In this document: piece by piece, positions 53,933 to 58,048 of the stretch
Position numbering within the stretch: position 1 is the first letter of the stretch
Layout of the letters: each line of letters starts with the position of its first letter
Source: Planctomycetota bacterium
Lineage (GTDB): Bacteria > Planctomycetota > UBA1135 > UBA2386
Assembly: GCA_029936315.1 (NCBI GenBank)
Contig: JAPYTD010000026.1
Span: 1 to 58,048, forward strand
Length of the DNA stretch: 58,048 bases
Direction of reading: 5' to 3'
Translations under genes and position numbers: made by a program
The notes under the pieces: model-generated
Told to the model about the DNA's origin: nothing
Database searches by the model: none
The model's input: the letters and a program-made list of their open reading frames with translations, nothing else

Positions 53933-54838
53933 TTGAACCCAGCCGATGACATTCTCCGAGCCTTCGACGCCCTGCTGCAGAAAGCGCAGGACGAGGCGCC
54001 GGCTCAGTTGCCCGAAATGCGTGCGCGCCTGGACGCAGTGATCAACGCGGGCACGGTGGCGCCAGAGAGCTCCGCGGAAGAGGGCTGGCACGGTCTGATC
54101 GGCGAGTGCTCCGCAATGCTCGAAATGCGGCGTTTCATCGAGAAGTTCGCGATGGCCAACGCTCCGGTGCTAATCACCGGCGAGAGCGGCACCGGTAAAG
54201 AACGCGTCGCCCAGGCCGTGCACGAGATCAGCCGCCGTAGCAAACAGGCGTTCGTTGCCGAGAACTGTGCCGCGATTCCGGCGACGCTGTTGGAGTCGGT
54301 GCTGTTCGGGCACAAGCGCGGCGCCTTCACCGGCGCCGTCAACGATCACCCCGGCCACTTCGTCGCGGCGCACCGTGGCACGATCTTCTTGGACGAGATC
54401 GGTGAGATGCCGTTGCCGATGCAGGTCAAGCTGCTGCGCGTCTTACAGGAAGGAGAAGTGCGGGCTGTGGGCGCGAGTTTGGCGCGCAAGGTCGACGTTC
54501 GCGTTGTTGCGGCCACCAATCAGGACCTCGAAGACGCGGTCAAGCAAGGCCGCTTTCGCGAGGACCTGTACTTCCGAATCAACGTGTTGCGGCTGTCGAT
54601 GCCGCCACTGCGCGATCGCGGCGACGACATCGCCTTGCTGGCGCGACGCTTCCTCGCCGAGGCGTCGACGCGCACCGGCCGGCCGTTGACGCTGTCACAG
54701 GCGGCTGTCGACGTGATGCTCTCGGCCAAGTGGCCTGGCAACGTACGTCAGCTGCAGAACGAGATGCAGCGACTGTCGGCCTTGGCCGACGGCCCCGAAG
54801 TCCGGGCCAACGAATTGTCGCCTGAGTTGACCAAGTAG
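53933..54838 (+). CDS. Sigma-54-dependent activator AAA+ domain, no DNA-binding domain
   Basis: The 301-residue product has a ~55-residue N-terminus and a sigma-54 activator AAA+ core: LIGECSAMLEMRRFIEKFA, GESGTGKERVAQAVHE (Walker A), GAFTGA in HKRGAFTGAVNDHPGHF, GTIFLDEIGEMPLPMQVKLL (Walker B) and WPGNVRQLQNEMQRL. The GAFTGA loop that touches sigma-54 is intact. It lacks both a receiver/GAF input domain and the C-terminal Fis-type HTH; the sequence stops 25 residues after the core. The TTG start has GAGG at 53922-53925. It follows pcrA by 11 bp and precedes the radical SAM gene by 4 bp. Confidence 0.85.
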   Translation: MNPADDILRAFDALLQKAQDEAPAQLPEMRARLDAVINAGTVAPESSAEEGWHGLIGECSAMLEMRRFIEKFAMANAPVLITGESGTGKERVAQAVHEISRRSKQAFVAENCAAIPATLLESVLFGHKRGAFTGAVNDHPGHFVAAHRGTIFLDEIGEMPLPMQVKLLRVLQEGEVRAVGASLARKVDVRVVAATNQDLEDAVKQGRFREDLYFRINVLRLSMPPLRDRGDDIALLARRFLAEASTRTGRPLTLSQAAVDVMLSAKWPGNVRQLQNEMQRLSALADGPEVRANELSPELTK

Positions 54839-54842
54839 TCGC

Positions 54843-56390
54843 ATGACCGTCGCTGCAGGCAACACTGGTGAGTTGGTGAGCACTGCGGACATCGTCTTGG
54901 CGACGCACAACGCGCGCTGGATCCACACCTCGTTTGGCCTGCGCAGCCTGCGCGCCAACCTCGGCGCGTTGCGCGAACGCAGCCTGATCCTCGAGTTCGA
55001 ATTGGGTGACTGGGCGGCTGATGTCGTCGAGCGATTGCTCCAGGCGCGGCCGCGCATCGTGGGCTTTGGCGTCTACGTTTGGAACGCGACCCAGGCGTTG
55101 CAGGTCGTTCGTGCGTTGAAGCAGGTTGCACCGGAGATTCTGGTCGTGATCGGTGGTCCTGAAGTCAGCTACGAACGGGACCAGCAGGAAGTGTGTGCGT
55201 TGGCGGACCACGTCGTCAGCGGCGAAGCGGACATCGTCTTTCGCGAGTTGTGCGAGGATCTGTTGGCCGGGCGTGCCCGGGACCAGTTCGTCGACGCGCC
55301 GCCGCCGCACTACACCGAACTCGCATCGCCCTACGCCGAATACACCGATGCAGACATCGCGCACCGCATTGTCTACGTCGAGAGTTCGCGCGGCTGCCCG
55401 TTCACTTGCGAGTTCTGTCTGTCGGCACTCGATGTGCCCGTGCGCAAGCCGGAGACCGAACAGTTTCTCGCCTCGATGCAGCAGTTGCTGGATCGTGGCG
55501 TGCGCCACTTCAAGTTCGTCGACCGCACCTTCAATCTCGGCATTGAGAGCTCTGCGGCGATCCTGCGGTTCTTCCGTGAGCGTTGGCAGGAGGGCATGTT
55601 CTTGCACTTCGAGCTGATCCCCGATCGTCTGCCGGACGCCTTACGCGAAGAGATCGCGGCGATGCCTGAGGGCGGGCTTCAGTTTGAGATTGGCGTGCAG
55701 ACTCTCGATGACGCGACCAGCAACCGCATCTCCCGCCGCCAAAACGTCGCACGGCTCGAAGACAACGTGCGCTGGTTGCGCACGAACACGACGGTGCATC
55801 TGCACGTCGACCTGATCGTTGGTCTACCCGGTGAAGACGAGGCCAGCTTCGCGCGCGGCTTCGACCAACTCTGGGCGCTCGGCCCGCACGAGATCCAGGT
55901 CGGCATCCTGAAGCGCCTGCGCGGTACGCCGATCATCCGCCACGACCAAGAGTTCGCGATGGTCTATGCGCAACAGCCTCCATACGACGTGCTGCAGACC
56001 GGCGCGATGCCATTTGCTACCGTGCAGCGACTCAAGCGCTTTGCACGCTTCTGGGATCTGGTCGCCAACCGTGGCAACTGGTCGGAGACGCTGCCACTGT
56101 TGTTGCAAGGTGAGTCGGCGTTCGCGCGGTTCGCGGATTTCGCCCAGTGGTTGTCGGAGCGCTCGACGGCGCCGACCAACATCGCATTGGTCAAATTGGC
56201 GAGATGGCTGTGGCAGTGGCTTGTCGACGAACGCAAACTCGTTGCCGAGATCGTTGGACAGGCCATGATGCGCGACTACGTACGCTGCGGTCGCAACGAT
56301 TGGCCAGAGTGCTTGCAGCCGTTCGTGAGCCACGACCGTGCACGGCAGGTGTCGTCGGCAACCGGTGCTTCGCGCCAGGCACGCCACTGA
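54843..56390 (+). CDS. B12-binding radical SAM protein (DUF4080-like)
   Basis: The 515-residue product has a cobalamin-binding N-terminal domain (VLATHNARWIHTSFGLRSLR, ILVVIGGPEVSYE) and a radical SAM domain with the cluster motif RGCPFTCEFCLSALD (C-x-x-x-C-x-x-C). Further motifs are FKFVDRTFNL, FEIGVQTLD and HLHVDLIVGLPGED. A DUF4080-like C-terminal domain follows. Members are widespread and of unknown reaction, often called anaerobic magnesium-protoporphyrin-like. It lies 4 bp after the sigma-54-type gene. Confidence 0.88.
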   Translation: MTVAAGNTGELVSTADIVLATHNARWIHTSFGLRSLRANLGALRERSLILEFELGDWAADVVERLLQARPRIVGFGVYVWNATQALQVVRALKQVAPEILVVIGGPEVSYERDQQEVCALADHVVSGEADIVFRELCEDLLAGRARDQFVDAPPPHYTELASPYAEYTDADIAHRIVYVESSRGCPFTCEFCLSALDVPVRKPETEQFLASMQQLLDRGVRHFKFVDRTFNLGIESSAAILRFFRERWQEGMFLHFELIPDRLPDALREEIAAMPEGGLQFEIGVQTLDDATSNRISRRQNVARLEDNVRWLRTNTTVHLHVDLIVGLPGEDEASFARGFDQLWALGPHEIQVGILKRLRGTPIIRHDQEFAMVYAQQPPYDVLQTGAMPFATVQRLKRFARFWDLVANRGNWSETLPLLLQGESAFARFADFAQWLSERSTAPTNIALVKLARWLWQWLVDERKLVAEIVGQAMMRDYVRCGRNDWPECLQPFVSHDRARQVSSATGASRQARH

Positions 56391-57065: not shown

Positions 57066-57117
57066 TGCCCAAGACAGCCAAGCCGCACTTGGCGGCTCCC
57101 CTTCGGAGAAGTAAATC

Positions 57118-58048
57118 ATGTTGCGACCAATTCTGATGTCCGCTTTGTGCGCGGCGATGGCCATGGTCTTGGCCCGTCCAGCCGCCCCCCAGTGATGAAG
57201 TGGTGGTGGCGGGTCCAGTTGGGCCCCACGTGGAGCTAGTTCAGGTGGCAAAGCTACGCAACCCGGTAGTGGTGGTGGTGGTAGAGGTGGCGGTATTCCG
57301 CTCGACTTCCGCCGCGGCCGGACGACCAAGGACATCCTGAAGGTTGAGTGGACCTACCCGGTCTACAAGCCGACGACTCCGCGGCGCAAGCCGGGCGAGC
57401 GCACGGTTGCCAAGGAAGTCGAGCGCGCGCTGCCGATCGGGAAGGCCTACGAGCTCGTTGCCGATGGCGACAAGCGGCCGCTCTTGATCATGCGTGAGTG
57501 CGAAATGTGCAAGGGCACGGACCACGCGATGATGAGTCGCACGCTCGACAACGAGCAAACGGTTCTGCTGACGAAGTGGTTCCGCTGCGTCAAGTTGCCG
57601 CCAAACATCCTGACTCCGAAGCACCCCTTCTACAACCTGTTCAAGAAGGGTGAGAAGCAGAAGAAGGTGCCGCACCTGTTCTTCGCGGATCCAAACGGTG
57701 ACCACAAGACGGCTCTGCCGGGTGACCAGTCGCAGTCCCAGCTGTGGAAGGTGATGTTCACCTACCTCGATCGCTGCTACGACGAGAACGCGAAGTCTGC
57801 CATCAAGCAGCTGCGCAAGATCCTCACTGAGTACGACAAGATCGACGCGCAAGAGGACTTGATCCGCAGCCGCATCGACAAGGAGATCGAGAAGAACGGT
57901 CCCAAGTCGAGGAAGCTCGCCAAGTTCAACAAGCAGCTCGACAAGGTCACCAAGGAGCGTGAGAAGCTGCGGGCAAAGGAGAAGGAGTTGCGGGACCTCG
58001 CACTCAAGGCTCCGGTCGAACCAGAAGAAGCTCTGGAGAGTGTGGCCA
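57118..58048 (+). CDS. Exported thioredoxin-like protein, frame broken by TGA-TGA, runs off window
   Basis: ATG 57118 starts a clear signal peptide (PILMSALCAAMAMVLARPAA). Two consecutive TGA codons (57193-57198) follow in the same frame. After them the frame is open to the window edge: a Gly/Ser-rich linker to ~57300, then a thioredoxin-like domain with RPLLIMRECEMCKGTDHAM (C-x-x-C), VPHLFFADPNGDHK (cis-Pro position) and LDRCYDENAK, then a Lys/Glu-rich coiled coil (KQLDKVTKEREKLRAKEKE). The domain and codon use look intact, so this is a recently broken gene, a sequence error or recoding. No good start is found between the stops and the thioredoxin domain. Type CDS is used because the body is intact. 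Confidence 0.5.

Follow-up and report, generated by a model that had tools for sequence, protein, structure and literature searches.

A predicted planctomycete selenoprotein family with two adjacent in-frame UGA codons and a bacterial SECIS hairpin

Organization of the locus and its predicted products

The window, that is, the whole stretch of 58,048 nucleotides analysed here, is the entire contig C157 of a 4.98-Mb draft planctomycete genome. Close to its 3' end, a reading frame opening at 57118 translates as MLRPILMSALCAAMAMVLARPAAPQ, two stop codons and then SGGGGSSWAPRG..., remaining open from the stops to the end of the window. The stops are two TGA codons, at 57193-57195 and 57196-57198, in frame with the signal peptide that precedes them, and the linker and domain that follow stay in that same frame. 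A frameshift in the C6 run that precedes the stops was considered and rejected, as the other frames encode no homologous protein. The features of the gene are as follows.

57105-57111, plus strand: Shine-Dalgarno-like GGAGAAG, 6 nt 5' of the ATG, from the sequence
57118-57192, plus strand: start codon and signal-peptide codons, from the translation; the ...ARPAAPQ segment is also found in family relatives
57193-57195, plus strand: UGA 1, predicted selenocysteine 1; in related loci TGA in 75/76 and the Cys codon TGT in 1/76
57196-57198, plus strand: UGA 2, predicted selenocysteine 2; in related loci TGA in 56/76, Cys (TGC/TGT) in 17, Arg or Gly in 3, with switches on the tree
57199-57294, plus strand: flexible linker rich in Gly, Ser, Pro and Ala, from the sequence, low pLDDT and the composition in relatives
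57210-57227, plus strand: predicted bacterial SECIS hairpin, stem 57210-57216 with 57221-57227, from covariation, loop position and model match
57295-58047, plus strand: conserved thioredoxin-fold domain, then a long helical region, from alignments, AlphaFold, Foldseek and the junction with contig C77
57499-57510, plus strand: CxxC motif C128-E-M-C131

The gene is cut by the contig end, and its missing end (...ESVASK-stop) is supplied by contig C77 of the same genome. The two contigs overlap by about 70 bases (window 57976-58047 against positions 1-72 of locus L004) with one mismatch (Ala/Val), which indicates that the gene was split by the assembly. Nearby, a radical SAM gene has its true stop at an ordinary TGA (56388-56390), so that a global change of the genetic code, already excluded in an earlier note on this DNA, can indeed be set aside. 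Further upstream, 53933-54838 encodes an AAA+ activator of sigma-54 whose chain terminates after the lid domain and in which Pfam finds no DNA-binding domain.

In an AlphaFold model in which Sec was entered as Cys, the N-terminal part is disordered, with low pLDDT at residues 26-58, and a confident domain follows after residue 60 (pLDDT mostly >90). The low-confidence linker has a comparable make-up in relatives, where about 80% of it is Gly, Pro, Ala and Ser. The best PDB matches of the model in Foldseek are nearly all thioredoxin folds, with probabilities up to 0.99 and no E-value below 0.001. The CxxC cysteines, C128 and C131, lie between a strand (122-126) and a helix (134-138) of the model, and both are invariant across 69 aligned sequences. 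As modelled, the domain is thus a thioredoxin fold with a CxxC motif between strand and helix, and the thioredoxin-like character that the earlier note had read from the letters is borne out by structure prediction, while no sequence family recognises the domain. Neither Pfam nor NCBIfam holds a model that matches the protein at cut-off, and the matches from a PDB sequence search, largely to lactoferrins, were all weak, with E 0.08 at best.

A second protein accompanies the first across the family. Of the 75 loci in which enough sequence follows the gene, 73 have a protein of one and the same kind encoded immediately after it on that strand, across a gap of 5-306 nt. In examples (locus L129 on contig C77 of the window's genome, 280-1509; locus L047, 5951-7171) it is 410-448 residues long, with a signal-peptide-like start. 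It is weakly similar to DUF1570, and its structure, predicted with high confidence, resembles bacterial collagenase and M1 aminopeptidase folds. The zinc motif of the copy belonging to the window's gene looks degenerate.

Codon exchange and selection at the tandem site

Of 61 genomes searched, that of the window and 60 relatives, 50 have homologues, and scanning public genomes yielded 78 loci, mostly titled Planctomycetota and including the complete Poly30 and Pla86 chromosomes. Codons were tallied in the 76 scanned loci whose N-terminus is visible when TGA is read through. Directly after ...PQ or ...PG, 55 of these have TGA-TGA, 17 have TGA-TGC/T and one has TGT-TGA, so that at this site 73 of the 76 carry either the tandem or one TGA next to a Cys codon; in the other three, TGA is accompanied by an Arg or Gly codon. 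Recurrence of a tandem stop at one place in 55 of 76 loci is far beyond chance. The in-frame TGA-TGA reported in the earlier note is consequently real, and the comparison with orthologues that it proposed finds the pair kept in closed genomes too, Poly30 and Pla86 both having it. The suggestion that each stop is one base away from a GGA (Gly) codon is not borne out: Gly occurs at the first position in none of the relatives and at the second in one (L085), the usual alternative being Cys.

The pattern extends beyond the closest relatives. At the equivalent site, more remote families within the phylum carry UC, CU, UU or just one U, and three distant homologues in such families lack the pair. 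The window's own genome contains a paralogue with TGA-TGC on contig C82 and one with a single Cys on contig C101; single-Cys paralogues are present in relatives as well. Cys at both positions was not found in any homologue, which raises the possibility that the function requires selenium chemistry, for example a vicinal diselenide. Phage records gave no match. In a distant planctomycete family (f15), two loci also have Sec-Sec after a signal peptide (L177 and L180, with LGQUUARG and LGQUUGRS), and the tandem may accordingly predate the order or have arisen twice. In one distant planctomycete (genome G085, C6:659251-662144, locus L176), selA is directly preceded by two family members on its own strand.

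On a tree of 75 domains, the UC label needs nine changes, at least eight of them forced by strongly supported branches, which implies that the second codon moved repeatedly between TGA and Cys. Such movement is, at the level of sequence, the mark of selenocysteine. In comparisons with the three nearest relatives, dN in the domain is 0.11-0.14 and dS 0.55-0.95 (dN/dS about 0.15-0.2), and the leader has a dN of 0.16-0.28, far below a dS that exceeds 1.2 or is saturated. These rates indicate that purifying selection acts on both flanks of the stops.

The SECIS hairpin and the decoding machinery

The candidate hairpin has an AGUU apical loop (57217-57220, with GU at 57218-57219), 21 nt after UGA 1 and 18 nt after UGA 2. 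Published rules for bacterial SECIS elements call for a loop of 3-9 nt with G within its first two positions, a stem of 4-16 bp, a distance of 16-37 nt from the UGA and a minimum free energy of -7.5 kcal/mol or lower (PMC13188914). The window's hairpin, with its AGUU loop, 7-bp stem, both spacings and -12.9 kcal/mol, agrees with all of these, and a SECIS model scores it at 49 bits. Its own folding energy is ordinary for its composition (z -0.14), and for this reason covariation was used as the test. Among 22 relatives aligned in one register, 90.9% of stem cells are paired against 65.9% after shuffling, compensatory changes occur in all seven stem pairs, and none of 500 shuffles scored as high; sliding the partner by one column lowers pairing to 51-56%.

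The position of the loop is likewise constrained. Counting from the first U of UGA 1, 70 of 77 sequences (the window included) have a GU apical loop at nucleotide 23, 26 or 29, most often at 26, and these positions differ by whole codons. GT is at position 26 in 52 of 76 sequences, each other tested position having at most 25. AGT accounts for 33 of the 38 Ser codons that lie over the loop but for 29 of 178 at other nearby places, an excess that puts the constraint on the RNA rather than the protein. An Rfam search found nothing. A search of the window's genome with the SECIS model gave no further convincing tandem-UGA gene: other matches were not open on both sides, except in the UC paralogue on C82, and a match at 57569 is out of frame.

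The same genome encodes the machinery for selenocysteine: tRNA-Sec (anticodon UCA) on contig C144, SelA on C26, SelB on C116, and, adjoining SelA, a SelD whose catalytic site has its own in-frame TGA (SSSG-TGA-AAK). In a phylum sample of 392 genomes, SelA is present in 52 of the 53 genomes with the family and in 194 of the 339 without it (p about 1e-10, with shared ancestry uncorrected).

Interpretation and comparison with known systems

Taken together, conservation, Sec/Cys exchange, the SECIS element and the decoding machinery provide a comparative basis for regarding the gene as a selenoprotein with two adjacent selenocysteines, a reading in which we have very high confidence. Translation would start at 57118, and the hairpin would recruit SelB carrying Sec-tRNA-Sec, so that the ribosome would incorporate Sec twice, at UGA 1 and then at UGA 2, one hairpin probably serving both codons. 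The signal peptide would export the product, leaving near the mature N-terminus a PQ-Sec-Sec segment on a flexible Gly-rich tether, joined to the thioredoxin-fold domain with its CxxC.

The earlier note had listed error, pseudogene, recoding and a leader peptide without choosing among them, and of these it is recoding that the comparison favours. The location of the gene at a contig end in a draft genome would suit a sequencing error, a recent pseudogene or a short leader peptide followed by restart within the gene, and yet TGA-TGA in 55 relatives, closed genomes among them, rules out error, and the purifying selection to either side of the stops rules out recent decay. No in-frame ATG, GTG or TTG precedes 57484, which is inside the conserved domain, and restart there would cost the protein about 60 conserved residues as well as its signal peptide. 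We regard this group of explanations as scarcely credible. It is also very unlikely that only one UGA is read as Sec, the other being read by a near-cognate Trp or Cys tRNA or serving as a regulatory stop at which most translation ends. Such a division of labour would accord with the 3-nt difference in hairpin spacing between the two codons, and with the homologues in which a single UGA suffices, the first in the UC forms and the second in the CU form. However, UGA 1 and UGA 2 each alternate with Cys codons (17 UC, one CU), so that both behave as Sec sites, and both fall in the accepted 16-37 nt spacing. Efficiency is a separate matter: for a single UGA, E. coli reaches only 30-40% decoding (PMC4513850), by which measure two in a row could be inefficient.

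With both codons read as Sec, the most likely role of the Sec-Sec arm, to which we give perhaps an even chance, is that of a redox relay. The pair would cycle between diselenol and diselenide, swinging between the CxxC and an extracytoplasmic substrate, and the arm may reach back to the former or out to the latter. The main alternative, which concerns function only, is that the arm serves as a metal or metalloid ligand. Vicinal thiol and selenol pairs are strong ligands of soft metals, vicinal thiols binding Hg, Cu or As, and the placement of the pair on a flexible arm would suit such a role. However, the conserved CxxC in a thioredoxin fold points to redox chemistry, and metal-resistance or metal-transport genes are not conserved neighbours, the sole conserved neighbour being the peptidase-like protein. 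We consider metal binding possible but rather unlikely.

More broadly, these genes probably represent a phylum-wide exported family with a Sec-Sec reactive centre, in which a single in-frame SECIS directs Sec insertion twice in succession. Automatic annotation would trim such a protein to a 25-residue leader, or miss it, across many Planctomycetota. The family opens to experiment the question of how a single SECIS, with SelB, serves two UGA codons in succession, and points to a new vicinal diselenol/diselenide centre.

The predicted domain finds its best fold matches in DsbD-gamma, AGR2, ERp18 and thioredoxins, which likewise have a CxxC before a helix, but it has no significant sequence match and adds long C-terminal helices and the Sec-Sec arm. 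The C-terminal GCUG arm of mammalian thioredoxin reductase and the vicinal Cys arm of MerA are mobile, carry two adjacent sulfur or selenium residues, and hand on electrons or metal to another redox centre. Although there is no homology, and here the arm is N-terminal, both residues are Sec and a signal peptide is present, the likeness of a mobile two-residue arm offers a lead as to how the Sec-Sec arm works.

Among selenoproteins, the family combines a conserved in-frame UGA with Cys in some homologues and corresponds to no known family in Pfam, NCBIfam or Table 1 of a 2026 inventory that covers 119 prokaryotic selenoprotein families, a table without a UU motif (PMC13188914). Bacterial proteins with more than one Sec are known, such as Prx-like UxxU forms and MbdU (CU, two Sec), but the motifs in that table are spaced or Cys-Sec, never UU (PMC13188914). 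No bacterial tandem Sec was found in the openly licensed literature searched. The sole case of Sec-Sec found there is an algal PDI_e with the motif GUGUU, claimed as the first consecutive pair (PMC7539508). The algal protein shares consecutive Sec-Sec with the family described here, but it is a eukaryotic protein disulfide isomerase with a eukaryotic SECIS, whereas the planctomycete gene is bacterial, with an in-frame bacterial hairpin, and its Sec-Sec lies outside the thioredoxin domain on an N-terminal arm. We call this a new selenoprotein family with a new motif, in which a known decoding mechanism would operate in an unusual tandem arrangement.
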